Assembly (NCBI RefSeq): GCF_003111645.1
Contig: NZ_CP022187.1
Location: forward strand, 1,426,001 to 1,490,000
Source: Parazoarcus communis
GTDB taxonomy: Bacteria > Pseudomonadota > Gammaproteobacteria > Burkholderiales > Rhodocyclaceae
Direction of reading: 5' to 3'
DNA: 64,000 bases
Shown: one piece after another, positions 661 through 16,025 of the stretch
Layout of the letters: every line of letters begins with the position of its first letter
Position numbering within the stretch: position 1 is the stretch's first letter
Position numbers and translations under genes: made by a program
The notes under the pieces: model-generated
Seen by the model: only the letters and a program-made list of their open reading frames with translations
Told to the model about the DNA's origin: nothing
Databases searched by the model: none

Positions 661-754
661 GTGCACTTGCGTGAATTTCATAATCCGCCTCAATCGCACT
701 GACCCAAACGCAGGCCAGTTGCGAAATTCCAACCAGGCAGACAGGAGACTCGCA

Positions 755-1963
755 ATGAACGCACCGACCGAAATCCGCAACTTCAAGGTTTTCGAACTCA
801 AGAACGTACTCAATTCGATTGAAGAAGCCGTTGGCCTTGGCAACGAGTTTTATACCGACGACAGCTATTTCAAGTTCGAGCGCGACCGCGTGCTTGCACA
901 GGGCTGGGCATGCATCGGTTTTGCGAGTGACGTCGGGACGAACAACTACGTCAAGCCGATCGAGTTCATGGGCTTGCCCCTTCTGATGATGCGAAATCGC
1001 GACGGTGCGCTGCAGGTATTCCACAACGTGTGCAGCCATCGTGGAATGAAGCTGGTGCATGAGGCAGGTGAAATTCAGGGCCTGATCCGTTGCGCCTACC
1101 ACTCCTGGACGTATGACCTCAACGGCGCACTGAAAGGTACGCCTCACGTTGGCGGGATCAACCAGCACAAGGATCCGCGCTTCGCCTGTGAAAAGCACGG
1201 TCTGAAGGCACTGCGCAGCCACGTCTGGATGGACATGGTGTTCGTCAATCTGTCCGGCACGGCACCGGCATTCGAAGACGCCATCCGGCCGCTCACGGAG
1301 CGTTGGGAGCAGTTCCTGGGCAAGGACGGCATGTCGCTGCTGCGCGCCCCGATCAGCGATGGTGCGATGAGCATCGAGGTGAATTGCAACTGGAAACTCG
1401 CGGTCGAGAACTATTGCGAGGCCTATCACCTCCCCTGGGTGCACCCGAGCCTCAACACCTACTCGCGCCTCGAAGATCACTACAACATCATGTTCGATGG
1501 CAACTTCGCAGGCCAGGGCAGCTACGCCTACAACCTCGCGGACATCGAAGGGACGTCGCTGCCGACCTTCCCTTCGTGGCCTGCGGACCGCATGCGCAAT
1601 GCAGAATACGTTGCGTTCTTCCCCAATGTGCTGCTCGGCATCCAGGCTGACCATGCCTTTGCCATGGTGCTTGAGCCGCTGGCCGCGAACAAGACCGTAG
1701 AGCACCTGCGCCTGTTCTACGTCGGCGACGAAGCTGCACGAAAGGACATCTATGCGGCCAGCCGTCACGCCATCCTCAGCGCCTGGCGAGTGGTGTTCTC
1801 GGAAGACATCGGTGCGGTCGAAGGCATGCAGGCCGGACGTCAGTCGCCGGGCTATCAGGGCGGTGTGTTCTCGCCCGAGATGGACGTACCAACGCACTAC
1901 TTCCATCAGTGGGCCGCGCGCCGGATTCTTTCCGCCAACGGTCAAGGGCAAGAGGCCGCGTGA
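755..1963 (+). CDS. Rieske non-heme iron oxygenase, large (alpha) subunit
   Basis: A 402-residue ring-hydroxylating/demethylating type oxygenase. The Rieske [2Fe-2S] ligands are C93, H95, C113 and H116 (CSHRG ... CAYHSW). The catalytic-domain iron ligands are H225 and H230 (NYCEAYHLPWVH), with D351 as the probable carboxylate. The overall pattern recalls single-component alpha subunits that demethylate quaternary amines (GbcA, CntA, stachydrine demethylase), but the substrate cannot be read from sequence. The start at 755 has AGGAG at 743-747; an upstream in-frame start at 656 lies inside the promoter and is rejected. It is first in a five-gene operon and its stop overlaps the next ATG (TGATG). 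No small beta subunit is present. The rubredoxin-type protein two genes downstream is a plausible electron donor. Confidence 0.9.
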   Translation: MNAPTEIRNFKVFELKNVLNSIEEAVGLGNEFYTDDSYFKFERDRVLAQGWACIGFASDVGTNNYVKPIEFMGLPLLMMRNRDGALQVFHNVCSHRGMKLVHEAGEIQGLIRCAYHSWTYDLNGALKGTPHVGGINQHKDPRFACEKHGLKALRSHVWMDMVFVNLSGTAPAFEDAIRPLTERWEQFLGKDGMSLLRAPISDGAMSIEVNCNWKLAVENYCEAYHLPWVHPSLNTYSRLEDHYNIMFDGNFAGQGSYAYNLADIEGTSLPTFPSWPADRMRNAEYVAFFPNVLLGIQADHAFAMVLEPLAANKTVEHLRLFYVGDEAARKDIYAASRHAILSAWRVVFSEDIGAVEGMQAGRQSPGYQGGVFSPEMDVPTHYFHQWAARRILSANGQGQEAA

Positions 1964-3411
1964 TGAAACACGCGATCGCCAGCCATTGGCAGAACTACAT
2001 CGACGGTCAATGGGTAGATGGTGAGCGTCAGCTTACTGTCTCCAACCCAGCGACCACCCAGCCACTTGCCAGCATCGCACTGGCGGGTATCGATGAGGCC
2101 GAAGCCGCGCTCGACGCGGCCACGCATTGCGCGCAGAACGGCTGGCTGACTTCGACACGCCCCGCGCAGCGGGTGCAGTGGTTGCTGCGTATCGCAGCCG
2201 AAATCCGAGCAGTCACTGATGAAGGCGCGTGGGTACTGTGCCAGGAGAACGGCAAGACCCTGCGCGATGCGCGCGACGAGTTCGTCGAGGCCGCACGCTA
2301 CTTCGAGTACTACGCCGGCATGGCCGACAAGATCGAAGGGATCTCCGTGCCCTTGGGTAACGGCTACGTCGACTTCACGAGCTACGAACCGATGGGGGTC
2401 TCGGTACAGATCGTGCCGTGGAACTTCCCGGTTTCCATCTGCGCCCGCTCGCTGGCCCCTGCCCTGGCGGCAGGGAATGCGGTGGTGGTGAAGTCGCCGG
2501 AGTTGTCGCCACTCGGAATGTGCGTGTTGTTTCGCGCCATCGAGCGTGCCGGCCTGCCGCGAGGCGCAGTCAACCTGTTGTGTGGGCTGGGCAGTGAGGT
2601 CGGCGCGCATCTGGTGAGCAGCCCCAAGGCAAACCAGATCGTGTTTACCGGCTCAGTCCCCACCGGGCAGTCGATTCTCGCCGCGGCAGCGCGCTGGGCA
2701 ACGCCGAGCGTCATGGAACTTGGCGGCAAGTCAGCTGCGTTGGTCTTTCCTGATGCCGACCGCGAACAACTGCTTGCCAGCGTGAAGAGTGGCATTTTCT
2801 TCAACGCCGGTCAGGTGTGCTCAGCGATGTCGCGCCTGCTGGTCCATCGCGACATCCATGACGAGATCGTGGCGGCAGTCGCTGAGATGGCTCAAGGGCT
2901 GGTTAGTGGCCCCGGAGAAGAAGATCCCGATCACACCCCCTTGATCAGCGCCGAGCAGCTGGCGAGGGTCCAGGCCATCTGCAACGACGCCATTGCCGAG
3001 GGTGCCGAAGCTGTTGTGGGCGGCGATCGTCAGAGTGATCGTGCTGGTCACTTCATGCAGCCGACGGTGTTTGCAGGCGTCACACCACAGATGAAGGTCG
3101 CACAGCAGGAGGTGTTTGGACCGGTGCTGGCAGTGATCCCGTTCGACTCCGAGGAGGAAGCCATCGAGATCGCAAATGGCACGCCGTTCGGACTGGTCTC
3201 GGGCGTGTTTACCCAGGACATCAACCGGGCCCTGCGACTGACGCGCCGCCTGCGAAGTGGTCAGGTGTTCGTCAACGAATGGTATGCGGGCGGAATCGAA
3301 ACACCGTTTGGCGGTGTCGGTCTGTCGGGATTTGGTCGCGAGAAAGGCCAGGAAGCCCTGTACAGCTACGTTCGCACGAAGAACGTGGCAATCCGCATCC
3401 AGCAGGACTGA
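1963..3411 (+). CDS. NAD(P)+-dependent aldehyde dehydrogenase
   Basis: A 482-residue ALDH-superfamily enzyme that would oxidise an aldehyde to the acid. Catalytic residues are visible: N154 in VPWNFP, E252 in MELGGKSA and the nucleophile C286 in [10 protein letters not shown]. Length is typical. The start ATG overlaps the Rieske stop codon by one base, so the two are translationally coupled. An aldehyde would be the product of an amine oxidase such as the one encoded at 4822-6138, so this enzyme probably acts one step later in the same pathway. It resembles betaine-aldehyde or aminobutyraldehyde dehydrogenases, but the exact substrate is unknown. Confidence 0.92.
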
Positions 3412-3421
3412 GGAGACAGCG

Positions 3422-4810
3422 ATGAAGAAATGGCTCTGCATCATCTGCGGATGGATCTACGACGAGGCCAAGGGCTGGCCGAAGGACGGAATCCTTGCGG
3501 GTACGCGCTGGGAGGATGTCCCCGAGGACTGGAAGTGCCCGGACTGCGGTGTTGGCAAGGCTGATTTCGAAATGATCGAGATCACCGCCCGTGTCGAACC
3601 CGTTCCCGTTGCAGTTCCTGCTTTCGCGACGGTGACGCCGATTCCGGTGCCGTCCCGCGGGCCGATCGTCATCATCGGCAGCGGACATGCAGGCTACAGC
3701 CTCGCAGCAGCAGTCCGCGAACAGAACGACAAGGTCGAAATTGTGGTCTTGACCCGGGAGTCGGGCCATCTCTATTCCAAGCCGGCGCTCTCCATCGCCA
3801 CTTCGCAGGGCCACAGCGCGGAAGAGCTGATGGACGAAGCACCATTCCAGATCGAAAAGCGCCTTAACATCCGCATTTACCCACACTGCGAAGTACGTCG
3901 CATCGATGCTGACGCACATGTTGTCGACACCAGCTTCGGCCCGATGCCTTATGGTCAGCTGGTGCTGGCGCTTGGCGCCAGCCCGATCCGCCTGGATGTG
4001 GCCGGACGCCGCGACGCCATGCTCAGCATCAACAATCTGGACGACTATGCCGCCTTTCAGCGCCAACTCCGCCATGGCGCCAAGGTCGCGATCATCGGCG
4101 ACGGATTGATCGGCTGCGAGTTCGCCAACGACCTTGCAAGCAGCGGCGCTGAAGTCAGCGTCATCGGCATCGGAAAATGGCCCCTCGAGCGAGCAATGCC
4201 CGAAGAAGCCGGACGGTGTTTGCAACAGGCACTGAGCGCACGAGGCGTGCGCTGGCACCTGCAGAACTCGGTGGTGTCCGTTGATGGAGACGAAGGCGCC
4301 TGGCGGATCACGCTCGCCAGCGGCGAACAGGTGGACGCCACTGCCATCATCTCCGCTGTGGGCCTTGCACCCAATGTAGACCTTGCAGCAGATTGCGGCA
4401 TCGATACAGCGCGCGGCATCCGTACCGACGCAAGGCTGCGAACCTCGCAGCCGGACATCTATGCGCTGGGCGACTGCATTGAAATCGACGGCCGCCCGGC
4501 CCCCTACCTCGCGCCGATCAACCTCGGAGTAAAGGCACTGTCCCAAACCTTGCTGGGTCGGCCAACCGAAGTTCAGTACCCGCCGATGCCGGTGATGGTA
4601 AAGACGCCGGCCACGCCAATCACCTTGTTGCTGCCACCCAGTGTTGTCGGCAAGTGGCACAGCACAGCGACCGAAAACGGCTTCTGCTGCGCTTATCACG
4701 ACGACTCCGGACGCATGTGTGGCTTCGCGTTGATCGGTGAAGCCGCGCAGGAAAAACGTCGTGTCTGGACGCAGGAATGCAGCCTGCGCATTACACAAGA
4801 AGCCGCCTGA
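3422..4810 (+). CDS. Rubredoxin / rubredoxin reductase fusion
   Basis: A 462-residue protein. Residues 1-52 are a rubredoxin with iron ligands C6, C9 (CIICG) and C39, C42 (CPDCG). A proline/valine-rich linker (about 55-77) follows. From about residue 78 there is a two-dinucleotide-fold FAD/NAD(P)H reductase, with [10 protein letters not shown] for [17 protein letters not shown] for NAD(P)H and a C-terminal ALGDC motif. In alkane or Rieske systems these two activities are usually separate proteins. Here one chain could pass electrons from NAD(P)H to rubredoxin and on to the Rieske oxygenase at 755. RBS GAGGAGA lies 7 bases upstream. The partner assignment is inference from the operon. Confidence 0.9.
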
Positions 4811-4821
4811 GCGAGCAGATC

Positions 4822-6138
4822 ATGAACCTTCCCAACGACGACAAAACTTGCGGCTGGTATGCAGCACTGCCCGCCCCCAAACCCGTGCGTACCCTGTCAG
4901 GGCAGCAAACGGCGGATTACGTGATTATCGGTGCGGGTTTTGCCGGGCTGGCGGCGGCTCGCCGCCTGGCCACGCTCGAGCCAGAAGCCCGCGTCATTCT
5001 GGTCGATGCACAGCGGGTCGCCGAGGGTGCCTCGGGTCGCAATTCCGGATTTGTAATCGACCTGCCGCACAAGTTCGCGCTTGAGCATCCGGACCCCGCA
5101 CACAAGCAGCGCCTTCTCGGCCTGAATCGTGCAGCAATCGCACAGCTCGAATCGCTGATCGCCGAACACGATATCGAATGCCAGTGGTCACACGCAGGAA
5201 AATATCAGGGTGCTGTTGGCGAGCGCGGGCTAGCCTATCTGGCACACTTCGAGAAACTGCTTTCCGGCCTCGGCGAACCCTTTCGCATGGTCGAGCGCGA
5301 TGAACTGCAAAGGGTGCTCGGCACAACGCATTACAGCCGCGCGATCTTTACCCCGGGTTGTTACCTGATGCAGCCTGCTGCACTCGTGCGGGGGCTGGGT
5401 GATTCCTTGCCGGAAAACGTAGAGCTGCTGGAAAACTCCCCCATCACGCGGCTTGAACGCGATGGCAAGGGCGGCTTCGTGCTGCTTGGCAATGCCGGGA
5501 CGATTCGCACGCCACGCCTGCTGCTCGGCACCAGCATCTTCACCCAGGAGTTCGGCTACCTGAAAAACCGTCTGTTGCCGGTCATGACCTTTGCCAGCTG
5601 GACCCGCCCGCTCAACGACGACGAATGCAAACGCTACACCGGCACCTTCAACTGGGGCCTGACCCCAGCGGACCACGCGGGCACGACGGTCAGAATGACT
5701 CAGGACAAGCGCTTGATCATTCGCAACACCTACAAGCACGTACCCAAGTACGGACGCAGCATTGATGACAAGGCCCGCTCGGACATTCGCAGCGATCATC
5801 GCAAGGCGCTCGTAAAGCGCTTTCCTGACCTTGCCGAAGTGCCCTTCACCCACACGTGGGGCGGGGTTTATGCGATTTCACGCAACTTCACCAACTTCTT
5901 TGGTCAGCTTGAAGAGGGCGTTTTCGCGTCAGCTTGCGACAACGGCGTGGGCGCGGCGTGGGGAACGATCTCCGGTACCCTGCTGGCAGATATGGCGGTC
6001 GGCGCGGACTCATCCCTGCTGCACGACATCCAGGCCGTGACGGGGATGCCCTCGCTGAACCCACCGGAGCCTTTCCTTGGATTCGGGGTGCGTTCTCGCA
6101 TCAAACTGGCAGCATGGAACAGCAGGAGTGAGCTATGA
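4822..6138 (+). CDS. FAD-dependent amine oxidoreductase (PuuB/DadA-like)
   Basis: A 438-residue DAO-family flavoprotein. The N-terminal dinucleotide fold is YVIIGAGFAGLAAARRL (from about residue 33), followed by the ASGRNSGF motif common in gamma-glutamylputrescine oxidase and related amine oxidases. The C-terminal FAD region includes GVFASACDNGVG. Such enzymes oxidise secondary or primary amines to an aldehyde or imine, which fits the aldehyde dehydrogenase upstream. The start at 4822 was chosen because it lies just after the stop of the rubredoxin fusion (4810); an earlier in-frame ATG at 4777 overlaps that gene. The stop overlaps the next start (ATGA). The substrate is unknown. Confidence 0.87.
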   Translation: MNLPNDDKTCGWYAALPAPKPVRTLSGQQTADYVIIGAGFAGLAAARRLATLEPEARVILVDAQRVAEGASGRNSGFVIDLPHKFALEHPDPAHKQRLLGLNRAAIAQLESLIAEHDIECQWSHAGKYQGAVGERGLAYLAHFEKLLSGLGEPFRMVERDELQRVLGTTHYSRAIFTPGCYLMQPAALVRGLGDSLPENVELLENSPITRLERDGKGGFVLLGNAGTIRTPRLLLGTSIFTQEFGYLKNRLLPVMTFASWTRPLNDDECKRYTGTFNWGLTPADHAGTTVRMTQDKRLIIRNTYKHVPKYGRSIDDKARSDIRSDHRKALVKRFPDLAEVPFTHTWGGVYAISRNFTNFFGQLEEGVFASACDNGVGAAWGTISGTLLADMAVGADSSLLHDIQAVTGMPSLNPPEPFLGFGVRSRIKLAAWNSRSEL

Positions 6139-6542
6139 CAGAACTTACGCAACCCCGTGTCGGCGTGCGTCTCGTCGACCACACCGACCTCGGCTTTGTG
6201 GTTCGTGGTGGCCCGCCAGGGGCTGCCTACGTGGCACGTGCGTTCAGCAATGAAGTGTCACCCAACCTGGGCGTCGGATTTGCGCGCTGGGAAGGTGCGG
6301 ACGTAAGCTGGACGACCCTTTACGAAGAGGTCATCTTCACCATCGAAGGGTGCCTCGAAGTCGAATCAGACGGTGTAAAGCACGCTGTAAAGCCAGGCCA
6401 GGTGCTGCTGATACCAAAGTGCACTGCCCTGAAGTACGGCGGTTTTGCACTTTTTGGATACGTGGTCTATCCCGGAAACTGGAAAGAGCTCTGCGACGAG
6501 GAATGCCCGGACGACCCCGCCACCTGCGAACGCAAACGCTGA
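6135..6542 (+). CDS. EutQ-like cupin-domain protein
   Basis: A 135-residue small beta-barrel (cupin) protein. The pattern of an acidic EEVIFTIEGCLEVESDG strand followed by KPGQVLLIPKCTALKY resembles the cupin of EutQ-type ethanolamine-utilisation proteins. It starts inside the stop of the upstream oxidase gene (ATGA), so it is the fifth and last gene of the operon. It may be a small enzyme or a binding protein for an intermediate. The C-terminus is Cys/Asp-rich. No role can be assigned from sequence. Confidence 0.75.
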   Translation: MTELTQPRVGVRLVDHTDLGFVVRGGPPGAAYVARAFSNEVSPNLGVGFARWEGADVSWTTLYEEVIFTIEGCLEVESDGVKHAVKPGQVLLIPKCTALKYGGFALFGYVVYPGNWKELCDEECPDDPATCERKR

Positions 6543-6647
6543 CTTGAACGCACGCTATTCAACAGCGTTTGAAGGCACAATTTCGCACCGGGCTTGTGTG
6601 CCCGGGAAAGGCCCTGACAGAGAGGCCCTGCCGGAACGTCAAGCACA

Positions 6648-7544
6648 ATGAAAATTCAGCCCCTTCCGCCTTTCAAGGCACTCATTGCGTTCGAGGCAAC
6701 AGCCCGCCTCGGCAGTTTCACGCGTGCAGCCTCGGAGCTCAACGTCACCCAGGGCGCGATCAGCAGACAGATCGCCGTACTTGAGGACATGCTGGGTGCC
6801 CACCTGCTCGACCGCACGACACGTTCGGTATGCCTTACCCCGACAGGAGAGCAGTACTTTCATTCAGCACGTGAAGCCTTGCTTGCGCTCGCGGACGCCA
6901 CTCACCAGATCAAGCGCTGGCACGGCGACCAGCAAGTCACCGTTGCAACCAGCACCGCGCTGGCTTCGATGTGGCTGCTGCCAAGGATTCCCGAGTTCAA
7001 CGAACTGCATGAGGGCATCGACCTCCGCATCGTTGCATATGATCACGTCAAGGATCATCAAAAGCTCGAGTGCGACCTCGCGGTTTATTACTGCAAGAGC
7101 CTGCCTGGCGGCATGAAAAGCACGCCTATCTGCAACGAAGCCATCTTTCCGATCTGCAGTCCGGCGTATCTTGCCCGACACCCGAATCTGTCTTCGCCGC
7201 AGGATCTGGCGAATTGCACGTGGTTGTGGCTGGATGAATCCGAGCGCGACTGGATCAGCTGGACACAATGGTTTCGCCAGCTCAATCTTCCGCTGGTCAC
7301 ACCGCGCAACAAGATCAACCTCAACAACTATTCCTTGGTCATACAGGCTGCACTCAGTGGCCAGGGCATTGCACTGGGCTGGCACAACCTTGTCGAGCAG
7401 TATCTCAACGCCGGCACCCTCGTCAAGCCGATAGCGGACGTGCTCGAAACAGATGCCCAATTCCTCGTCCTCGAGAAGCCCGGTCCGCATGAGCGCCGAA
7501 GGAGCGTCGCGTGCTTCAGGGAATGGCTGCTCTCTCTGAAATAG
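6648..7544 (+). CDS. LysR-family transcriptional regulator (GcvA-like)
   Basis: A 298-residue LTTR. The N-terminal winged helix is at residues 5-65 (FEATARLGSFTRAASELNVTQGAISRQ), followed by the linker helix and a periplasmic-binding-protein-like effector domain. The FPICSPAYLARHP segment is typical of the GcvA subgroup. It lies between the Rieske operon and the BCCT/DddP operon on the same strand. The shared 29-bp element in front of both operons makes it the best candidate for their common activator (inference). The Shine-Dalgarno is weak. A hairpin terminator at 7580-7614 follows the gene. Confidence 0.92.
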   Translation: MKIQPLPPFKALIAFEATARLGSFTRAASELNVTQGAISRQIAVLEDMLGAHLLDRTTRSVCLTPTGEQYFHSAREALLALADATHQIKRWHGDQQVTVATSTALASMWLLPRIPEFNELHEGIDLRIVAYDHVKDHQKLECDLAVYYCKSLPGGMKSTPICNEAIFPICSPAYLARHPNLSSPQDLANCTWLWLDESERDWISWTQWFRQLNLPLVTPRNKINLNNYSLVIQAALSGQGIALGWHNLVEQYLNAGTLVKPIADVLETDAQFLVLEKPGPHERRRSVACFREWLLSLK

Positions 7545-7579
7545 CGTCTGATCCGAAAGCGAATGACTGGTCTTGACTG

Positions 7580-7614
7580 CCCTGCCCCGCGAATCGCGGC
7601 TGCAGGGATTTTTT
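7580..7614 (+). terminator. Rho-independent terminator after the LysR gene
   Basis: An outer stem CCCTGC/GCAGGG encloses an inner CCGCG-AAT-CGCGG stem, followed by ATTTTTT. It separates the LysR gene from the BCCT operon promoter. Confidence 0.85.
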
Positions 7615-7660
7615 ATGTCGAAAGGCAAAGGCGCGGGGCTCAATGACATTACTGAAAGTC

Positions 7661-7689
7661 ATTAATCAGCCGCACAAAAATCGTTTGTT
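7661..7689 (+). promoter_or_regulatory. Shared 29-bp operator/promoter element, copy 2 (BCCT-DddP operon)
   Basis: Matches the element at 632-660 in 24 of 29 bases, with the same length and no gaps: ATTAATCAGC at the left and AATCGTTTGTT at the right. TTTGTT at 7684-7689 would be the -35 box, and AACAAT at 7708-7713 the -10 after 18 bases, the same spacing as in copy 1. Predicted transcription start is near 7720, about 100 bases before the BCCT start codon. Bases are seen; promoter function is inferred. Confidence 0.65.
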
Positions 7690-7725
7690 ACAGCGCGTCG
7701 ATTTCTTAACAATCGACTCACCCGA

Positions 7726-7739
7726 TTGATCCGGATCAA
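7726..7739 (+). promoter_or_regulatory. Perfect FNR/Dnr-type palindrome
   Basis: TTGATCCGGATCAA is an exact TTGAT-N4-ATCAA box. It lies just downstream of the start site predicted from the shared promoter element (about +6 to +20). That position suits repression under low oxygen better than activation. No good -10 is seen at the class II distance (near 7762-7767), which also argues against activation from a second promoter. Confidence 0.75.
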
Positions 7740-7820
7740 AAGAGATTCTGACGTCGGTCACTGCGGTTCAGCCAGCCTCACCGTGCTGAAGCCACACAAA
7801 AATAGAATGAGGAGACATCA

Positions 7821-9374
7821 ATGAGAGAGATGAGCACCACACTCCCGTTGCCTGGCGAAAGCAATGCCCGGCTAATGGGACTGGACTTCCACAAAGTCAT
7901 ATTCCCGGTTTCGGTTGCGTTCATCGTTGCGACCGTAGCCCTTGCACTGAACGACCCGGCTGCTTTCGGCGCCAACCTTGAGGCAACAAAGGGCTGGATT
8001 CTCAAGCATTGCGACTGGTTCATCATGATCATGGGCAACCTGTTTGTGCTGCTGTGTGTCGCCCTCGCCATCTCGCCGCTCGGAAAGATCCGCCTGGGAG
8101 GGAAGGATGCGCGACCCGAGTACGGCATGCTCTCATGGTTCTCGATGCTGTTCGCCGCCGGCATGGGCGTCGGACTGCTGTACTGGGGCGTGGCCGAACC
8201 GGTGGCCGCCTACACCGCGTGGTGGAAAACGCCGCTCAATATCGCTGCCAACACGCCTGAAGCCGTGCATGGGGCAATGGGCTCCACCCTGTTTCACTGG
8301 GGTCTGCACCCGTGGGCAATTTACCTCAGCACCGCACTGATCGTTGGCTACTTCTCGTACAACAAGGGCCTGCCGTTTTCGCTCAGCTCGGCCCTCAAGC
8401 CCCTGATTGGCAATGCTTACAAGGGACCGATTGGCCACGCGGTGGACGTCTTTACCGTTGTACTGACTACCTTTGGCCTGTCGACTTCGCTGGGTCTTGG
8501 CGCGATGCAGGCAACGGCCGGTATTCATCACGTGCTCGGAACCCCCAACGATTTCACCATGCAAGCCCTGTTCATTCTCGCCGTCTGCGGTATCGCCGCG
8601 GTATCAGTATGGCGCGGAATGGATTCAGGCGTAAAACTGCTGTCGAACATCAACATGGGCCTTGCGCTGCTGCTGCTGATCTTCGCCGTTTTCGGTGTCG
8701 GTGTCGGCGTCTTTCTGTCCGGCATGTTCAGCGCTTCGGCTGACTATGTAACGATGTTCGTGCCGCTGGCAAACTGGGTCGATCGGCCTGACACCGACTG
8801 GTTCCAGGGCTGGACGGTGTTCTATTGGGCCTGGTGGTGCACCTGGGGGCCGCTGGTTGGCGTCTTTGTTGCCAAGGTATCCAAAGGTCGCACCATCCGC
8901 CAGATGGTGGCCGTGGTGATGCTGGTACCGACCATCGTCGCACTGTTCTGGTTCACCGCATTCGGTGGTGGGGCCATTGCCCAGGTCGCTGCCGGAACGG
9001 GCGCGCTGGCAGAGGGGCTCAAGGATGTGAATATGGCCATCTTCCAGTTCCTTGAAGTCCTGCCGATGTCGGCGATCACATCGCTTCTGGTGGTCTTCCT
9101 GCTGGTGATCTTCATGGTGACCTCGGTGGACTCGGGTGCGCTGGTGGTCGATAACCTTGCGGCTGGCGGTATCCCCGAAACGCCAGTGCCGCAACGGGTA
9201 CTGTGGGTTGGCCTGATTGCTCTCGTCACCATGGTGCTGTTCGTCATTGGCGGGGATAGCGCGCTCAAGGGCGTGCAGGCCGGCGCAGTCGCGATGGGCC
9301 TGCCCTTCATGGCCCTGATGCTGGTGCTGATGATCGGTTTTGTGAAGGCCCTGCTCCAGGACTCGCACGCATGA
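7821..9374 (+). CDS. BCCT-family transporter (betaine/choline/carnitine/DMSP type)
   Basis: A 517-residue, 12-TM sodium- or proton-coupled importer of trimethylammonium or sulfonium compounds. Family signatures are GMGVGLLYWGVAEP and the aromatic substrate-box segment FYWAWWCTWGPLVGVFVAKVS. RBS GGAGAC lies 6 bases before the ATG; a second in-frame ATG is 9 bases on. The stop overlaps the start of the DddP-like gene (ATGA), so transporter and enzyme are coupled, which suggests that the enzyme acts on the imported substrate. No long C-terminal osmosensory tail is evident, which favours a catabolic over an osmoregulatory role. Confidence 0.93.
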   Translation: MREMSTTLPLPGESNARLMGLDFHKVIFPVSVAFIVATVALALNDPAAFGANLEATKGWILKHCDWFIMIMGNLFVLLCVALAISPLGKIRLGGKDARPEYGMLSWFSMLFAAGMGVGLLYWGVAEPVAAYTAWWKTPLNIAANTPEAVHGAMGSTLFHWGLHPWAIYLSTALIVGYFSYNKGLPFSLSSALKPLIGNAYKGPIGHAVDVFTVVLTTFGLSTSLGLGAMQATAGIHHVLGTPNDFTMQALFILAVCGIAAVSVWRGMDSGVKLLSNINMGLALLLLIFAVFGVGVGVFLSGMFSASADYVTMFVPLANWVDRPDTDWFQGWTVFYWAWWCTWGPLVGVFVAKVSKGRTIRQMVAVVMLVPTIVALFWFTAFGGGAIAQVAAGTGALAEGLKDVNMAIFQFLEVLPMSAITSLLVVFLLVIFMVTSVDSGALVVDNLAAGGIPETPVPQRVLWVGLIALVTMVLFVIGGDSALKGVQAGAVAMGLPFMALMLVLMIGFVKALLQDSHA

Positions 9375-10723
9375 GCACAGTCGCTTCGACTGTTCAGGAT
9401 TCGAGAATCGGTGCCGGGAGCCGGCGCCGGATCGGAGGGTCTGAACCAACGGATCGTCCGCGCGGCGACGCTGCTGGCGTACTCAATATGCACGCCCTTG
9501 GACCAGGCGCCGAAGCCGTCGGCGAGTGGGACAAGGCAGGGCTGGCAGCACCCGATCTTGCTGCAATGAGGCGATACCGGCTGGAGCGGGTGCGGCAGCA
9601 ACTACGCCAGGCTGACTACGCCGGCATCGTGCTCTACGACCCGGTTAACGTTCGCTATGCAACTGACAGCACCAACATGCAGGTGTGGCTGTTGCACAAC
9701 GCCAGTCGCTACGTATTCGTTCCCGCTGACGGCCCCGTGGTGCTGTGGGAATTCGACCACTGCGACTTCCTCAGCGGTCACACAGAATCGATAGACGAGA
9801 TCCGCCCCTGCGTACCGTGGTTCTACTTCTGTGCGGGTGATCGCATACCTGAGCAGGCCGAACGCTGGGCAGATGAAATCGCCGCACTGGTGCGTCAGCA
9901 CGGAGGCGGAAATACCCGGCTCGCGATTGATCACTGCAACCCGGAAGGCATTTCCGCCCTCGCCCGCAGGGGCGTTGGCGTGCATAACGGTGAGGCGATC
10001 ATGGAGCGCGCGCGAGAGATCAAGAGTGACGACGAGCTGCTTGCGATGCGTCGCGCCATCCATGCGTGCGAAACGGGCATGACGGTCATGCGCGAGCATC
10101 TGGGACCCGGAATCTCGGAGCAGCGGCTGTGGAGCTACCTTCATGCCGAGAACATCGCCAGGGGTGGCGAATGGATCGAGACCCGTCTGCTCGCTTCAGG
10201 TCCGCGCTGCAACCCCTGGTATCAGGAATGCAGCAGCCGCATCATCGAAAACGGCGATCTTGTCGCTTTCGACACCGATCTCGTCGGTGCCTATGGCATC
10301 TGCGTGGACACTTCGCGCACCTGGCTGTGCGGCGACATGGCGCCCACACCCGCGCAGCGCGACATCTACAGCCGAGCCTATGAGCAGATCCGCTTCAACA
10401 CCGAACTACTGCGTCCCGGCGTGAGCTACCACGACCTGACGCACAAGGCGATGCGCTATCCGGCCGAGGACTTTCGTCATTACACCTGCCTCTATCATGG
10501 GGTCGGCCTGTGTGACGAGGCACCCATCATCTACTTCCCCGAGGCCTGGCAGTCCTTTGGTTACGACGGCGTGCTCGAACCGGGCATGGTGCTGTGTGTC
10601 GAGAGCTTTCTGGGACGGACTGCAGGCGGCCCCGGCGTAAAGCTGGAGGAGCAGGTATTGATTACAGAAACCGGGCACGAGGTGCTTACCAGATATCCAT
10701 TCGAGGAGCAGTTGCTGCGGTAG
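9371..10723 (+). CDS. dddP: DddP-family DMSP lyase (M24 metallopeptidase fold)
   Basis: A 450-residue protein of the creatinase/M24 fold that closely matches DddP, which cleaves dimethylsulfoniopropionate to DMS and acrylate. Residues reported as essential in Ruegeria lacuscaerulensis DddP are all present with constant offset. The metal ligands map to D301, D303, D313, H376, E411 and E426; the catalytic pair maps to Y371 and D382 (YHGVGLCDEAP). GGEWIETRLLASGPR and FDTDLVGAYGICVD are also characteristic. The first 35 residues look unrelated to the family, but the ATGA overlap with the BCCT gene supports this start. A terminator follows. The family assignment rests on recalled reference sequence; activity on DMSP here is inferred, and another betaine-like substrate is possible. 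Confidence 0.8.
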   Translation: MSTVASTVQDSRIGAGSRRRIGGSEPTDRPRGDAAGVLNMHALGPGAEAVGEWDKAGLAAPDLAAMRRYRLERVRQQLRQADYAGIVLYDPVNVRYATDSTNMQVWLLHNASRYVFVPADGPVVLWEFDHCDFLSGHTESIDEIRPCVPWFYFCAGDRIPEQAERWADEIAALVRQHGGGNTRLAIDHCNPEGISALARRGVGVHNGEAIMERAREIKSDDELLAMRRAIHACETGMTVMREHLGPGISEQRLWSYLHAENIARGGEWIETRLLASGPRCNPWYQECSSRIIENGDLVAFDTDLVGAYGICVDTSRTWLCGDMAPTPAQRDIYSRAYEQIRFNTELLRPGVSYHDLTHKAMRYPAEDFRHYTCLYHGVGLCDEAPIIYFPEAWQSFGYDGVLEPGMVLCVESFLGRTAGGPGVKLEEQVLITETGHEVLTRYPFEEQLLR

Positions 10724-10798: not shown

Positions 10799-10831
10799 AC
10801 GGGCGGTATCTGCGGATGCCGCCCGTTTTTT
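10799..10831 (+). terminator. Rho-independent terminator of the BCCT-dddP operon
   Basis: ACGGGCGG pairs with CCGCCCGT across a 12-base loop and is followed by a run of T. The next gene starts only 9 bases past the T run. Confidence 0.85.
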
Positions 10832-10839
10832 GGAACATC

Positions 10840-11253
10840 ATGAACCTCCCTGACGTGGTTGGACTCATCGGCGTCATCTGTTATCAAATTGCCTATGCAG
10901 GCCTGCAACTCGGTCGCTTCAGCCAGCGCGACGCAAGATACATAGGGCTCAATATTCTTGGCCCCGGCTGCCTGCTGTTCTCGCTCTTCTTCTATTTCAA
11001 CCTCGCATCCTTTGTCACCCAGGTACTGTGGATGTGCCTGACCATCCTCGGCCTTGCGAAGATCTGGGGGGAGCGCAGAAAGCCGGCCGCCGGCAGTCCG
11101 CCGAGCACGCTGGTCACCGTGCCTGCTGCGGGCGTGAGCGAGAACATTAGAGGAGTCCCCAGCACCCGCCCGTCAAGAAAACGGGCAAAACGAAAAACCG
11201 TTAGATCAAGGGGAAGACGTCAAATCTCCACCGCCCGTTCTCACACCAGATAA
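10840..11253 (+). CDS. Small membrane protein, CBU_0592-like domain
   Basis: 137 residues with three hydrophobic segments in the first 80 (VVGLIGVICYQIAYAGL, IGLNILGPGCLLFSLFFYF, FVTQVLWMCLTILGLAKIW), which resembles the CBU_0592-like small membrane family of unknown function. The last 50 residues form a very basic, low-complexity tail (RKRAKRKTVRSRGRR) unlike the family, perhaps a read-on extension. The ATG at 10840 lies 9 bases after the T run of the upstream terminator, and no good ribosome binding site is seen; an earlier ATG at 10816 is inside the terminator hairpin. Any promoter must therefore precede the hairpin. Confidence 0.6.
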   Translation: MNLPDVVGLIGVICYQIAYAGLQLGRFSQRDARYIGLNILGPGCLLFSLFFYFNLASFVTQVLWMCLTILGLAKIWGERRKPAAGSPPSTLVTVPAAGVSENIRGVPSTRPSRKRAKRKTVRSRGRRQISTARSHTR

Positions 11254-11301: not shown

Positions 11302-13344
11302 CTAGGCGCGCCCTTCCGACGTATCCGGATTCGGCAGCTGCGGATAGCGCACGTAATCCACCAGATCCTGGATCTCCTTCGGCGGGGGCGGGGTCAGCAG
11401 GCTGACGATGACGATCACCGCAAAACCGAGCGGTACGCCGAAAACGCCGGCCGAGATCGGGTTGATCTCGAACCAGGCGTTGGCCATCGAGCCGCCGAAG
11501 AAGGGGTGGGTGCGGACGACGTAGTAGAGGGTGACGCCAAGCCCGATCAGCATGCCTGCAACCGCGCCGGGGCGGTTTGCGCGTTTCCAGAAGATGCCGA
11601 GCACCAAGGCGGGGAAGAAGGATGCGGCGCCAATCGAGAACGCGAGGCCGACCATGAACAGAATGTTGTCCGGGCGCAGCGACGCGACCCATGCGGCCAC
11701 GACAGCCACCACCAGCAACTGTGACTTGGAAATCACCAGCCGGCGGTGGGTGGAGGCGGCAGGGTTGATGACCTTGTAGTACAGGTCGTGCGACAGCGCG
11801 TTGGAGATGGTCAGCAGCAGGCCGTCGGCAGTCGATAGCGCGGCGGCGAGCCCGCCGGCGGCGACCAGACCGGTGACGACGTAGGGCAAGCCCGCGATCT
11901 CTGGGGTGGCGAGCATGATCACGTCGGTGTTCATCCTCAGCTCGGCGAGTTGCAGAATGCCGTCGCCGTTGATGTCTTCGATGTGCACCAGCCCCACCTT
12001 GCCCCAGGACGCAACCCAGTCGGGCAGGATGGAAAGGCTCGAGCCAATGAGGTTGTTGTACACCTCCCACTTGGCAAACACGGCATAGGCCGGGGCTGTG
12101 ACGTATAGCAGGAAGATGAAGAACAGCGACCAGAATACCGAGCGCCGCGCCTCCACCACGCCAGGCGTGGTGTAGTAGCGCATCAGGATGTGCGGCAACG
12201 CCGCCGTGCCGACCATGAGCACGAAGACAAGTGCGAGAAAGTTGTTGCGGGAGGCTGTCCGCTCCTGCGGCGTTCTGCCGGGGTGCGCATCTGCGTGGCG
12301 GGGTGGCGCACGCGAACGTTCGAGCGATTCCGCCTGTGCCTTGTTCCACTGCACCCGCGCCTCTTCGGGCGTTCGCGGCAGGTCGCGCAGCGAGCGCTCG
12401 GTTGCCGCAATCTCGCGTGCCGAGGCGTTCTCCAGCCGCATGATGTTGAGACGCTCGATCAGCGAACGGCGCTCGGCATCGAGCGAGCCGGGCAGGTCGG
12501 CAATCTTGCTCGCGTAGTCCTGCGATCGATAGCGATACTGCTTACGCGCCTCGACTTCGCCCGGATCGACGAGCAATTCGGCCTCACGCTCCGTCACCTG
12601 ACTGAGCACCGTCCCGTACATGATCTGCGGCACCGGAACCCCGGTGAGCTTGTAGGACAGAATGACCACGGGTACCAGGTAGGCAATGATGAGGATCACG
12701 TACTGTGCGACCTGGGTCCAGGTCACTGCCCGCATGCCGCCAAGGAAGGAACACACCAGAATGCCGGCGAGGCCGATGAACAGGCCGATCTCGAACTCGA
12801 CACTGACGAAGCGGCTGGTCACCAGCCCCACACCGTAGATCTGCGCCACAAGGTAGACGAAGCTCGCAAGCACGGTGGCGCCGAGCCCCACGAGGCGGGC
12901 GACGTTGCCCTGGTAGCGCGCGCCGAGGAAGTCGGGGATGGTGTATTGGCCGAACTTGCGCAGGTAGGGCGCAAGCAGCAGGGCCACCAGCACGAAGCCG
13001 CCGGTCCAGCCGGTGACGAAGGCCAGCCCTTCGAAGCCGGAAAAGTAGAGCGTGCCCGCCAGGCCGATATACGACGCGGCACTCATCCAGTCTGCTGCGG
13101 TCGCCATGCCATTGAACACGGCCGGCACGCGCCGCCCCGCGACGTAATACTCCGACACGTCGGTGGTACGGCTCATCACACCGATACTGGCGTAGATGGC
13201 GATAGTGACGAACAGGAAGACGTGACCGATCAGGTGTTGCGACAGGCCAAGCTGTTCGCCGATGGCGAGCATAACCACGAAGAACAGGAAGGTGCCCGTG
13301 TACCAGCCGTAATAGCGACGAAGCTGTCGGGAAAAGGCGCTCAA
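11302..13344 (-). CDS. Na+:solute symporter, acetate-permease-like (VC_2705 family)
   Basis: A 680-residue SSS-family symporter. Family features include EYYVAGRRVPAVFNGMATAADWMS near residue 65 and SFLGGMRAVTWTQVAQY. A charged, coiled-coil-like cytoplasmic insert of about 115 residues (roughly 255-370) interrupts the membrane region, as in the VC_2705 subgroup. A calcium-loop-like DINGDGILQLAEL lies near residue 470, followed by the GGLAAALSTADGLLLTISNALSHDLYY block. It is last in the minus-strand cluster containing acs and the CrbS-like sensor, so acetate or another short carboxylate is the likely cargo (inference). It begins 44 bases after the exonuclease-fusion gene. Confidence 0.88.
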   Translation of the reverse strand: MSAFSRQLRRYYGWYTGTFLFFVVMLAIGEQLGLSQHLIGHVFLFVTIAIYASIGVMSRTTDVSEYYVAGRRVPAVFNGMATAADWMSAASYIGLAGTLYFSGFEGLAFVTGWTGGFVLVALLLAPYLRKFGQYTIPDFLGARYQGNVARLVGLGATVLASFVYLVAQIYGVGLVTSRFVSVEFEIGLFIGLAGILVCSFLGGMRAVTWTQVAQYVILIIAYLVPVVILSYKLTGVPVPQIMYGTVLSQVTEREAELLVDPGEVEARKQYRYRSQDYASKIADLPGSLDAERRSLIERLNIMRLENASAREIAATERSLRDLPRTPEEARVQWNKAQAESLERSRAPPRHADAHPGRTPQERTASRNNFLALVFVLMVGTAALPHILMRYYTTPGVVEARRSVFWSLFFIFLLYVTAPAYAVFAKWEVYNNLIGSSLSILPDWVASWGKVGLVHIEDINGDGILQLAELRMNTDVIMLATPEIAGLPYVVTGLVAAGGLAAALSTADGLLLTISNALSHDLYYKVINPAASTHRRLVISKSQLLVVAVVAAWVASLRPDNILFMVGLAFSIGAASFFPALVLGIFWKRANRPGAVAGMLIGLGVTLYYVVRTHPFFGGSMANAWFEINPISAGVFGVPLGFAVIVIVSLLTPPPPKEIQDLVDYVRYPQLPNPDTSEGRA

Positions 13345-13387
13345 AACTGCCGCTCACCGACGATGTTGATGAATCCGGCGTCCGGCA

Positions 13388-15613
13388 TCAATACTTGATC
13401 CGCGCGTAGTAGGTTTTCTCCGCGGCTTCACGTGCTTCGCGCAAGGTCCGGATGCCCTTCTCCGCCAGCAGCGGAACGAGCTTGAGGAAGACCTCTGCAG
13501 TGACGATGGCATCGCCGAGTGCGGTGTGGCGCCCGATGATGGTGAGGCCAAGCCGGTCTGCAATCGCTTCGAGCCGGTGAGATTCCTGATTGGGGTGAAT
13601 CACCGCCGACAGCAGCAGGGTGTCGAGCACCGGCTGATCGAAACGCAAACCGGTGAGCTGTTCCTTGAGCTGCAGGAAGCGCATGTCGAAGGCGGCATTG
13701 TGGGCAATCAGCACCGTTTCTGCGGCAAAGGCATGGAAGGCCGGCAGCACCGACTCGACAGTGGGTTGCCCTCGCAGCATGTCCTCGGTGATGCCGTGGA
13801 TCTTGGCCGACTCGGCCGACAGGGGGCGGCACGGATCGATGAGCTGCTCGAACGATTCGCTGCGCAGCAGCTTGCCGTTGAGGACACGGGTTGCACCGAT
13901 CTGAATGATCTCGTCACCCTGAGAGGGGTTGAGGCCGGTAGTCTCGGTATCGAACACGGTGTAGGCCAGCTCTGAGAGCAAGCGGTCGTCGAGCGCATGC
14001 GATCTCTCGGACCACTTGAAGAGATCGAAATCGTAGTACTCGGGGCGACTCTCTCCGCGCAGGTAAGTCCCCGCCTCGACCACCTCCTGCGGCAGTGCAG
14101 CCGGGATGAGGAGACGGAAGAAGGCGCGATGGCGCACCTTCTCGCGCTCGAGCCACATCTCGCCATCGTGGCGCTCGATGACGTCACGCACCGTCAGCGG
14201 ACTGCTTTCGCCGGCGAACTGCATGGATTCGAGCTCCCAGCTCATCACCGTTTCGGTGCTCATCGCCTGGCCCGACCAGATGAGGTCGAGGTGGACATGA
14301 CGGCCCGCAGCAGTGAGGCGGAAGCGCACCTCGCGCACCTCGAATTCGTCGGACAGGCGGCTGGCAAGGTAGGTGAGCGCCTGCATCAGCGAGAAGCTGT
14401 CGACCTTGAGCCACAGCGATTCGTCGACTTCCTCGAGCTTGGTACGGAGACTGATCCGCTGTTCGATGTGACGCTGAACGGCCGCGATAAGGTCGGCACC
14501 GAGCATCTCTTCGAGCGGCCAGCGCGCCTTGAGCGAATCGGCAAATTCGTTCGCCGTCTGGTCGAGGCGCCGGCTCATGGCCTGGGTCTCGTCGCGGATG
14601 ACGGTGCGGAAGCGCTCGCGCAGCTCGCCCTGCAGATCGGGATACTCCAGCATCTCGGCGGCTGCGCGCACATTGGCCAGCGCAGCACGGTTGCCCTCGG
14701 TCAGGGTGTGCAGCATCTGGTCGCGTCGAGACTCGTTCTCGAAGTTGCGCGTGATGTTGTCGAGCATGAGGATGAAGCCGGTCAGGACGCGCTCTGCACC
14801 CTCGCCCTGCCCCGCGCCCTTGCTCTCGCCCTCGCCTTTGTTCTCGCCCTCGGTCTCGACGCGCTCGGTCGCCGACAGCACCGGTGCCATCTGCACCCGC
14901 AGCAACTGCCCGGCCTTCGTCGTAGTGACGAAGTTGGCGACCGGCTGCACGCCTTCGCGATGAAGGCGCTGGTTGATGGTTTCGAGCGCATGACTCACCA
15001 GGTTGCGCTCGAACACGCCATAGATGGAACGCCCGAGACCGATCAGCTCACCGCCACCGGCGACGCCGGGCGCGTCGGACATGGCGCGGAACTGGAGCCT
15101 CGCGCGGTTGTTGTAGAGCAGGATGCGGCCGTCGAGATTGCACACCACCACGCTCTGGGTGAGCTCCGACATCAGTGCGGCGAGGCGGTTCTTTTCCTGT
15201 TCGACCGAGGCCTTGGCGTTGCGGATCTGGGTTTCGACGTCCTTCGAGACGTTGTCGCGCTGCTGCGCGAGTTCATTGACCGCCACCGCCAGCGCCTGCA
15301 CTTCGGGTGGCCCCTCGGGCTCGACACGGAAACCGACGTTGGCGCCGAGCATCAGGCGCAGGTTCTCGGCCATGCGCAGCAAGCCCTGCACGTACTGGCG
15401 GAACAGGTTGCGCAGCACACCGATACCGACGCCGAAACCCATGATGGTCAGCAGCGACCCCAGCGGCAGGTGCGGCTGTATGACCTGGATGAGCAAATCG
15501 CGCTGACTGCCCTTGGTTTCAACCCACACCAGCACGGCGGTAAGGATGAAGGGGCCGGTCATCAGCAGACCGAGTACGATGACTGCCAGAACAAAGCGCA
15601 TGCGTGCCGACAT
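13388..15613 (-). CDS. Degenerate sensor-kinase / DEDDh 3'-5' exonuclease fusion
   Basis: 741 residues. Two N-terminal membrane segments (about 8-30 and 48-70) are followed by a HAMP-like region, a PAS-like domain with VVCNLDGRILLYNNRA (about 155-175) and an acidic Gly/Glu/Lys linker (about 250-275). Next come a coiled dimerisation helix and an ATPase-like region that lacks recognisable N, D and G boxes. Residues 553-741 are a DnaQ-type exonuclease with all five catalytic residues: D555 and E557 (FDTETTG), D643 (HNAAFDMRF), H696 and D701 (RHTALGDA). Related exonuclease genes occur beside acetate-sensor genes in Pseudomonas. The 3-base gap to the receiver gene makes one transcription unit. Whether it trims nucleic acid or another phosphodiester is unknown. 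Confidence 0.85.
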   Translation of the reverse strand: MSARMRFVLAVIVLGLLMTGPFILTAVLVWVETKGSQRDLLIQVIQPHLPLGSLLTIMGFGVGIGVLRNLFRQYVQGLLRMAENLRLMLGANVGFRVEPEGPPEVQALAVAVNELAQQRDNVSKDVETQIRNAKASVEQEKNRLAALMSELTQSVVVCNLDGRILLYNNRARLQFRAMSDAPGVAGGGELIGLGRSIYGVFERNLVSHALETINQRLHREGVQPVANFVTTTKAGQLLRVQMAPVLSATERVETEGENKGEGESKGAGQGEGAERVLTGFILMLDNITRNFENESRRDQMLHTLTEGNRAALANVRAAAEMLEYPDLQGELRERFRTVIRDETQAMSRRLDQTANEFADSLKARWPLEEMLGADLIAAVQRHIEQRISLRTKLEEVDESLWLKVDSFSLMQALTYLASRLSDEFEVREVRFRLTAAGRHVHLDLIWSGQAMSTETVMSWELESMQFAGESSPLTVRDVIERHDGEMWLEREKVRHRAFFRLLIPAALPQEVVEAGTYLRGESRPEYYDFDLFKWSERSHALDDRLLSELAYTVFDTETTGLNPSQGDEIIQIGATRVLNGKLLRSESFEQLIDPCRPLSAESAKIHGITEDMLRGQPTVESVLPAFHAFAAETVLIAHNAAFDMRFLQLKEQLTGLRFDQPVLDTLLLSAVIHPNQESHRLEAIADRLGLTIIGRHTALGDAIVTAEVFLKLVPLLAEKGIRTLREAREAAEKTYYARIKY

Positions 15614-15616
15614 CGT

Positions 15617-15985
15617 TCAGCTCTCCAACATGCTGCGCACGCGCTCCACGAGCTCCTTGGTGGAAAAAGGCTTGGTCATGTAGGCATCAGCCCCCAGCGC
15701 AAGCCCCTTGCTGACTTCGGTATCCCGCCCCTTCGCCGTCAGCATCAGGATGCGGATGGATTCCAGCTCCGGGTCCGCCTTGACCTCCTGGCACACCTCG
15801 AAGCCGCTCTTCTTGGGCATCATGACGTCGAGCAGCACAAGATCGGGCCGGTCGGAGCGGATGCGGTTCACCGCCTCCTCGCCGTCCGTTGCCACAGTGA
15901 CATCGAAGCCCTCCCGCTTCAGCAGGAATTCGAGCGAGATCACGATATTCGGCTCATCGTCCGCAATCAGTATTTTCTTGGCCAT
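15617..15985 (-). CDS. Stand-alone response-regulator receiver (CheY-like)
   Basis: A 122-residue single receiver domain. The acidic pocket D9/D10, phospho-acceptor D53 (LVLLDVMMP), T83 and K105 are all present. There is no output domain, so it must act by protein contact or pass the phosphate on. It sits between the CrbS-like kinase and the kinase-exonuclease fusion, and is the likely phosphorylation target of the former. In Vibrio and Pseudomonas the partner of CrbS is a DNA-binding LuxR-type protein (CrbR), so this arrangement is different. Confidence 0.92.
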   Translation of the reverse strand: MAKKILIADDEPNIVISLEFLLKREGFDVTVATDGEEAVNRIRSDRPDLVLLDVMMPKKSGFEVCQEVKADPELESIRILMLTAKGRDTEVSKGLALGADAYMTKPFSTKELVERVRSMLES

Positions 15986-16025
15986 GCATTCCCTCCCCTG
16001 ACGCCTATTTTATGCCATCCGTTCG

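Follow-up and report, generated by a model that had tools for sequence, protein, structure and literature searches.

A DddP-like M24 enzyme placed apart from the DddP branch, encoded with a BCCT transporter in a putative betaine catabolism operon of Parazoarcus communis

DddP is regarded as the most abundant DMSP lyase. Passages of PMC5395565 place its Km for DMSP in the millimolar range (14–17 mM), describe its catalytic Asp as standing in the place of a peptidase His and name C–N bond hydrolysis as typical of M24 enzymes. The M24 protein encoded in the window (the whole 64-kb stretch of DNA analysed) shares with RlDddP (4RZY) and RdDddP (4B28) the fold, the dimetal ligands and the equivalents of Y366, D377 and W95, at 48% and 45% identity, respectively, but differs in having Ser for Gly282, Ala for Trp379 and Tyr for Phe278, and it scores under the DddP equivalog cut-off and lies outside the DddP branch. 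M24 proteins annotated as 'Xaa-Pro peptidase family' and encoded beside MttB and DMGDH-like genes belong to the same family and share the neighbourhood theme of the window; we found no description of a link between DddP-like proteins and MttB in the open-access literature. Such M24 genes occur in Mesorhizobium, Roseibium, SUP05-type organisms and Acidimicrobiia and, by annotation, on S. meliloti pSymA. The window M24 is 53–61% identical to the Mesorhizobium group, where the demethylation genes are MttB and DAO-GcvT, whereas the window has a Rieske system and a DAO.

The pair of BCCT and M24 genes reported in the initial annotation is present, and the two open reading frames have the ATGA at 9371–9374 in common. 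That annotation missed five further same-strand genes and a LysR gene upstream of the BCCT gene (655–7544), which are part of one conserved cluster. The operon comprises:

755–1963, plus strand: Rieske oxygenase alpha subunit (Pfam Rieske and Ring_hydroxyl_A); the frame is open from 656, with the likely ATG at 755 behind AGGAG
1909–3411, plus strand: aldehyde dehydrogenase, most similar to betaine-aldehyde and aminobutyraldehyde dehydrogenases and under the cut-offs for those
3422–4810, plus strand: rubredoxin fused to an NADH:rubredoxin-type reductase (Pfam Rubredoxin, Pyr_redox_2 and Rbx_binding); the frame runs from GTG 3257, with the likely start at ATG 3422
4777–6138, plus strand: FAD-dependent amine oxidase (DAO), nearest to NCBIfam pipecolate oxidase AmaA, under cut-off, and with no PDB match at E 1e-8
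6135–6542, plus strand: EutQ-type cupin (Pfam EutQ, 62 bits)
6648–7544, plus strand: LysR regulator of the GcvA / choline-sulfate type, by profile match
7821–9374, plus strand: BCCT transporter, 517 aa (TIGR00842, 418.6 bits against a cut-off of 407.55)
9371–10723, plus strand: M24 enzyme of 450 aa, DddP-like but apart from the DddP branch, by profile, tree, alignment and fold

The entire operon is kept in a second genome of the genus (G001) and in Denitromonas, and so is the contact between the two genes, with the BCCT match ending and the M24 match starting at 10112 in G001 (L033) and at 9001 in Denitromonas ohlonensis (L053). The latter is the closest named relative, at 82% in M24 among the best 80 of 592 relatives, in agreement with the Rhodocyclales-type host proposed initially. 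The denitrifying lifestyle proposed for that host is weakly supported, as the genome does hold a NosZ-like gene but one that scores 480 bits, under the model cut-off of 625.

The Rieske protein is like the group V enzymes CntA and GbcA in nearest-match rank and in its bridging Glu (ENYCEAYH) but is distant from both; its nearest NCBIfam model is GbcA, for which it reaches 119 bits with the cut-off at 670, and its nearest PDB entry is carnitine monooxygenase at 115 bits. Missing from it is the Cys-x-x-Cys pair (ENYCEAYHLPWVH), which PMC10952381, in its passage on the motif, describes for CntA and Stc2 and as a feature of 'some Group V' Rieske oxygenases. The TIGR00842 score bears out the BCCT family assignment. 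Against carriers in the PDB the transporter scores 345 bits for the trimethylamine transporter, 303 for choline, 267 for BetP and 174 for DddT; judged by these matches, carriers of trimethylamine, choline and betaine stand closer to it than DddT does. Its score with the glycine betaine-specific model NF047988 is 429 bits, under the cut-off of 650.

The eight residues that had been quoted as the DddP set at an offset of +5/+6 all align with RlDddP in a 98-row alignment: D295, D297 and D307 with window D301, D303 and D313 (+6), and Y366, H371, D377, E406 and E421 with Y371, H376, D382, E411 and E426 (+5). W95 aligns with W106. This correspondence is not due to chance, because RlDddP is the best PDB match of the protein (E 1e-127). 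The predicted structure also agrees with the DddP fold, with an rmsd of 1.6 Å to RlDddP at 48% identity, and creatinase and ectoine hydrolase are among its structural neighbours. However, these residues are not diagnostic of a DMSP lyase because they are equally conserved outside the DddP branch: the six metal ligands (D295, D297, D307, H371, E406 and E421), all aligned in the window protein, are invariant across a 55-sequence alignment covering the inside and outside of that branch, and the Y366, D377 and onium-binding Trp columns are conserved in 79/79 rows of the DddP-branch, window and Mesorhizobium groups. Other columns separate the groups. That of RlDddP G282 is Gly in 42/42 rows of the DddP branch, whereas 36/37 rows in the window and Mesorhizobium groups have Ser there (S288 in the window); that of W379 is Trp in 18/18 core rows and A384 in the window, and that of F278 is Phe in 18/18 core rows and 21/24 other DddP-branch rows and Y284 in the window. 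The Phe published as replacing a peptidase His in DddP is probably F278, and the window protein has Tyr 284 where this mark is expected.

With the NCBIfam DddP equivalog NF043017 the window M24 scores 506 bits and misses the cut-off of 600. Across 398 genomes, 18 places lie above the cut-off (635–903 bits) and the other 35 matches reach at most 483, so that the window falls between them with the top score under the cut-off. A search of genome contigs supplied the best 80 of 592 relatives. A set of 206 sequences was reduced at 88% identity to 126 for a first tree, after which the groups were defined; 98 of these entered a second tree, with long-branch rows (L203, L020 and L048) and rows close to others removed by hand. 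In these trees, drawn from the midpoint with no outgroup root, RlDddP and RdDddP sit in a 42-row branch (support 99) and the window protein in another, 24-row branch (support 99); forcing it into the DddP branch gave an AU p of 0.03, a modest margin for groups that were defined after the first tree. Placement outside the DddP clade had been named beforehand as the refuting outcome, and it is what the tree gives: the protein does not join the two DddPs of solved structure, which are the proven DddPs and clade references among the tree's rows; Oceanimonas DddP2 and the fungal DddPs are not among them.

Gene neighbourhoods were labelled by the presence of MttB, DMGDH-like, BHMT, sarcosine-oxidase or Rieske genes no more than 8 kb away and scored only with at least 4 kb on both sides. 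Such demethylation genes stand alongside 21/27 scored representatives of the window (11/16) and Mesorhizobium (10/11) groups versus 3/29 in the DddP branch (2/13 and 1/16 in its two groups). The contrast has a Fisher p of 4e-7, with kinship ignored, and the test is descriptive because the label families came from prior inspection of the same loci. On the tree the label, set by hand with the window and L202 taken as positive, changes 14 times. None of 15 DddP-core loci from the G genomes (L172–L186) has demethylation genes. Within the DddP branch such neighbours occur in three scored rows (L129, L045 and L140) and in three left unscored for short flanks, L038 with MttB near, L046 with DMGDH near and L135 with a Rieske operon across the record's start. 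The window is likewise unscored in its own group, together with L065, which has sarcosine-oxidase-like genes, L054, L055 and L037. The scoring table predates loci L200–L204, so that S. meliloti L202 counts as 'none' in it despite an annotated MttB and an 806-aa FAD oxidoreductase. The name 'DddP-type DMSP lyase' is therefore doubtful for the window M24, given the missed cut-off, the place outside the branch, and an operon and most scored relatives that point to quaternary-amine demethylation.

A plasmid of Pseudomonas sp. MPC6 carries an operon of the same set (Rieske, ALDH, reductase, DAO, EutQ, M24 and BCCT), at 67% identity in the Rieske protein, 79% in the oxidase and 73% in the BCCT. Unlike the window operon it includes an MFS gene and has LysR in a separate position, and a dddDTBC-like cluster lies next to it. 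Its M24, 52% identical to that of the window, is from a different DddP-like clade, so that two DddP-like clades serve one operon type. On Oceanisphaera pA a DddP-branch gene lies 1.3 kb from a BCCT gene and the same operon type. The operon was also found without M24 in the Cupriavidus and A. baumannii stretches examined, and 0/11 class-level Rieske loci examined have an M24 gene; M24 is thus an add-on to the operon, a point against the betaine reading given below.

We favour, with a probability of roughly 55%, the reading that the M24 protein, DddP-like but from a clade of its own, acts with the BCCT transporter in an operon for quaternary-ammonium betaine catabolism. The likeliest substrate would be a quaternary-ammonium betaine, imported by the BCCT protein; the Rieske oxygenase, with electrons via the rubredoxin-reductase, and the FAD oxidase would strip off methyl groups or the amine, an aldehyde product would be oxidised by the aldehyde dehydrogenase, and LysR would regulate the operon. 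For the M24 protein a DddP-like elimination is a tentative proposal from its residues, favoured because it keeps the di-metal site, the W106/Y371 pair and D382. The metals would grip the carboxylate, the pair would hold the positively charged head, and catalytic D382 would abstract the alpha proton so that the onium group leaves, as a tertiary amine in place of dimethyl sulfide. Beta-alanine betaine is our guess at an example substrate. The qualifier 'or a similar sulfonium/betaine compound' in the initial proposal of DMSP uptake and cleavage thus holds up, with better support for its betaine half than for its sulfonium half.

The strongest alternative, though an unlikely one, is a divergent DddP subgroup that is a genuine DMSP lyase, with BCCT importing DMSP, M24 yielding DMS and acrylate and an AcuI encoded elsewhere handling the acrylate. 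The conserved metal, catalytic and Trp/Tyr residues, the fold and the top sub-cut-off score argue for it; against it stand the clade, the score gap and the pocket changes. G491 encodes a DddP above the cut-off with a BCCT gene at a distance of 112 bp, and BCCT adjacency was for that reason dropped as a betaine sign; among the listed carriers the window BCCT scores lowest with DddT. The roles of DddT, DddB, DddC and DddD are general background that goes beyond the text of PMC8163506. The DddP-branch gene at the operon of Oceanisphaera pA and the dddDTBC-like cluster of MPC6 would both fit DMSP, but none of the genes in the window operon points specifically to sulfur or acrylate, and the cupin, considered as a cupin DMSP lyase, matches EutQ instead. 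As first noted, no acuI is visible nearby, a search of the 64-kb window for the AcuI family giving no match. One AcuI above the NCBIfam cut-off is encoded elsewhere in the genome (3,367,323; 593 bits), but this says little on DMSP because G002–G004 of the same genus carry AcuI and are without M24 at E 1e-60, and AcuI was dropped as uninformative.

A hydrolase like the M24 relatives creatinase, ectoine hydrolase and prolidase, cutting a C–N bond in a betaine conjugate and feeding the demethylation genes, is less probable still. It would agree with the chemistry typical of the family and with the structural neighbours, and an MttB, DMGDH or sarcosine-oxidase context would suit an enzyme that sets free glycine betaine or sarcosine units; yet the match to ectoine hydrolase DoeA (NF038259) is weak, at 40 bits against a cut-off of 575, and the catalytic Asp that replaces the peptidase His is kept as D382. 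It is very improbable that the M24 gene is a mere passenger that contributes nothing to the pathway encoded next to it: kindred operons without M24 do exist, but the BCCT overlap is kept in three genomes, M24s of three tree groups are found at such operons and many M24 relatives are tied to demethylation genes.

Extending the betaine reading, DddP-like M24s could at root be amine-releasing lyases that cleave N-betaines together with MttB or Rieske systems, DddP being a sulfonium-specialised branch; we offer this tentatively. If true, many 'dddP' genes from sediments, Mesorhizobium, Actinobacteria, Anaerolineae and Betaproteobacteria would yield no DMS. Passages of survey reports assign DddP to Mesorhizobium and Pseudomonas, on average 37.8% of bacteria, in Yellow/Bohai Sea sediment (PMC7039863) and to groups with Beta-/Gammaproteobacteria, Actinobacteria and Anaerolineae (PMC7494906; PMC13360808). 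In our tree none of the Mesorhizobium, acidimicrobial, anaerolineal and window homologues joins the two solved DddPs in their branch, and many lie beside quaternary-amine demethylation genes; dddP counts in surveys may hence be inflated, a hypothesis drawn from the tree's own homologues. The finding is also relevant to the millimolar Km that DddP has for DMSP, and the native substrate of the family becomes directly testable with a single purified protein.

Two further betaine pathways were considered. The homarine operon was weighed for its grouping of Rieske, reductase, oxidase and LysR genes, and the literature gave no usable criterion; proline betaine (stachydrine) was set aside, the window cluster being without proline genes. 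An R. etli pC locus near putA, which combines Rieske, reductase, M24, proline racemase and betaine/proline ABC genes, does fit stachydrine.

The initial annotation had coupled a DddP-type lyase gene (a DddP-like gene encoding 450 residues, hereafter M24) to a BCCT transporter gene, and the ATGA overlap that it described is present, with both genes on the + strand.

7821-9374, + strand, BCCT gene, its 3' end overlapping the M24 gene by ATGA
9371-10723, + strand, M24 gene, its start overlapping the BCCT gene by ATGA
upstream of this pair, same strand, genes for a Rieske oxygenase, an aldehyde dehydrogenase (ALDH), a rubredoxin-reductase fusion, a DAO-family FAD oxidase, a EutQ cupin and a GcvA-type LysR

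The host genome is a single contig of 4.57 Mb, of which the window covers 1,426,001-1,490,000. The full operon, gene order unchanged, is found in G001, a genome of the same genus (97-99% identity), and in Denitromonas ohlonensis (70-89% identity over the eight named genes). At E 1e-60 the M24 gene is rare near the host, occurring in 2/41 near genomes, both of the host's own genus, and in 20/369 genomes sampled from the class. Immediately 3' of M24, 10816-11253 encodes a CBU_0592-family membrane protein (91 bits, cut-off 25), also present in G001 (97%) and Denitromonas (65%). The - strand past M24 (11302-21138) encodes a sodium:solute symporter, an exonuclease-domain protein, a response regulator, a histidine kinase and an acetyl-CoA-synthetase-like protein. 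In a Paracoccus yeei plasmid (L141), DddP likewise has an exonuclease and a response regulator in its vicinity, which may be coincidence.

The top PDB match of the M24 protein is RlDddP (E 1e-127), a DMSP lyase of solved structure. Foldseek searches with its AlphaFold2 model (pLDDT 87, pTM 0.85; residues 1-41 disordered) ranked the four DddP entries first and prolidases next, and the model matches 4s01 with TM 0.88/0.91, an rmsd of 1.6 Å and 48% identity. Across 398 genomes of the phylum, the NCBIfam DddP model (cut-off 600 bits) found 18 places in 17 genomes above its cut-off (635-903 bits) and 36 below it, the highest of these being the window protein at 506 bits and the next 483. One relative (L190, genome G419) contains one in-frame TGA, read through in the search, and scores 439 bits.

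Placement within the DddP clade was not recovered in either of our trees (FastTree, 126 rows; IQ-TREE, 98 rows). RlDddP and RdDddP, the sole DddPs of proven function or solved structure in the sampling, share one branch (45 rows, support 100, and 42 rows, support 99, respectively), and the window protein lies in another (28 rows, support 99, and 24 rows, support 99) that in both trees also contains Chloroflexi, gammaproteobacterial and acidimicrobial homologues. A Mesorhizobium/Roseibium/Kiloniella group stands apart from both branches in both trees. Constraining the window and Denitromonas proteins into the DddP branch was 76 lnL units worse (AU p 0.030), a modest test of a grouping seen beforehand. 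The window protein shares 45-49% identity with the DddP core, 46-54% with the remaining rows of the DddP branch and 53-61% with the Mesorhizobium group. Oceanimonas DddP2 is described as functional and divergent in PMC6309047. In earlier surveys (PMC7494906, PMC7039863 and PMC13360808) Betaproteobacteria, Actinobacteria, Mesorhizobium and Anaerolineae already appear as sources of DddP homologues, and thus a DddP homologue in a betaproteobacterium is not new.

The active-site layout of the M24 protein is DddP-like, yet the protein neither scores as a DddP with the NCBIfam model nor groups with RlDddP and RdDddP. All eight DddP residues listed in the initial annotation were found by alignment. 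No row among the 79 from the DddP-branch, window and Mesorhizobium groups departs from D301, D303, Y371, H376, D382 or W106, and a 55-sequence alignment keeps the full eight together with W106 invariant; in the more distant group (19 rows) Y371 is kept in 18, D382 in 15 and W106 in 13. Because they are invariant across groups in and out of the DddP branch, the eight residues and W106 mark a wider family, not the DMSP lyase. The DddP metal site and proposals for Y366 and D377 (Y371 and D382 here) are covered in PMC4108388. Several alignment columns separate the groups. The column of RlDddP G282 is Gly in 42/42 DddP-branch rows and Ser in 36/37 window and Mesorhizobium rows; that of W379 is Trp in 18/18 core rows, either Trp or Tyr in the 24 remaining DddP-branch rows and Ala in the window; and that of F278 is Phe in 18/18 core rows, Tyr in the window and Phe in 9/22 window-group rows. 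As the NPWFQECG stretch contains both G282 and F278, and W379 follows the catalytic Asp by two residues, a pocket altered relative to DddP is plausible from the sequence.

M24 genes are repeatedly found alongside genes for quaternary-amine demethylation, and these are of unrelated types (MttB or Rieske). In many relatives, genes for an MttB-family methyltransferase and a DAO-GcvT (dimethylglycine-dehydrogenase-like, DMGDH) protein precede M24 on the same strand, with 55-100 bp between the DMGDH and M24 matches, for example, at L056, L059, L064, L096 and L100. Betaine-homocysteine methyltransferase often joins these loci (above cut-off in L060), as do fatty-acid-desaturase-family and phosphonate-binding-type protein genes. 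Among tree representatives with at least 4 kb of flank on each side, demethylation-type matches (at least 150 bits, within 8 kb of M24) occur in 11/16 window-group, 10/11 Mesorhizobium-group, 5/18 distant-group, 2/13 outer DddP-branch and 1/16 core DddP loci. Window and Mesorhizobium groups together give 21/27 versus 3/29 for the DddP branch (Fisher p 4e-7, kinship uncorrected, label families picked after inspection of the loci). The contrast, though strong, has exceptions: within the DddP branch such genes lie near L129, L045 and L140 (Loktanella), and also near the unscored L038, L046 and L135. Distant-group examples include a Parasedimentitalea plasmid (DMGDH-size FAD gene, M24, MttB, LysR, sarcosine oxidase), S. 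meliloti R28 pSymA (L202; MttB, FAD gene, M24, betaine ABC genes) and Paraburkholderia and R. etli plasmids (Rieske, reductase, M24). At L202 (7842-9826) M24 abuts an isochorismatase-family gene; betaine ABC genes and an enolase-superfamily gene come next, and genes for MttB and a large FAD oxidoreductase lie close by. On Loktanella salsilacus plas2 (L140, 7911-15067) a DddP 82% identical to RlDddP adjoins LysR, Rieske, 2Fe-2S reductase and NADH:flavin oxidoreductase genes, a gene set resembling the stachydrine type. Our search of open-access papers found no link between DddP-like proteins, MttB and betaine.

M24, usually together with BCCT, is an add-on module to the Rieske operon. Pseudomonas sp. 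MPC6 has the same operon, with Rieske, ALDH, DAO, cupin and BCCT proteins 67-79% identical to those of the window, but its M24 is of a different clade (52% identical). In Oceanisphaera sp. IT1-181 pA a DddP-branch gene (112,044-113,390), a BCCT gene (297-2015; 38% identical to the window's BCCT) and a Rieske operon (2349-8120) span the start of the circular record. M24 genes from three tree groups therefore occur at Rieske-type operons, and M24 is absent from the stretches examined at the Rieske operon of Cupriavidus pauculus and A. baumannii, at 3/3 Roseobacter plasmid loci and at 11/11 class-level loci of more distant Rieske homologues. Adjoining the MPC6 operon are genes for a BCCT, an iron alcohol dehydrogenase, a methylmalonate-semialdehyde dehydrogenase and a protein of 838 residues that carries two CoA-transferase III domains, a composition matching that of a dddDTBC cluster in PMC8163506. 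On this conjugative MPC6 plasmid (L240, 12360-36818) the dddDTBC-like cluster and the Rieske/M24 operon thus adjoin one another, with three BCCT genes in all, as an osmolyte-catabolism island.

We infer that the M24 enzyme probably acts on an N-betaine (probability about 0.55). According to PMC5395565, which also gives a DddP Km of 14-17 mM, the Trp/Tyr pair holds the sulfonium in DddP; the same pair would bind an ammonium head just as well. A DddP-like elimination would tentatively be the favoured chemistry. DMSP, one of the substrates considered in the initial annotation, is less likely: fold and active-site residues agree with it, but those residues are shared beyond the DddP branch, outside which the protein falls. 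For an N-betaine substrate, beta-alanine betaine is our guess at an example, prompted by the semialdehyde-dehydrogenase theme in MPC6 and at the A. baumannii locus, which carries a methylmalonate-semialdehyde dehydrogenase gene and two BCCTs.
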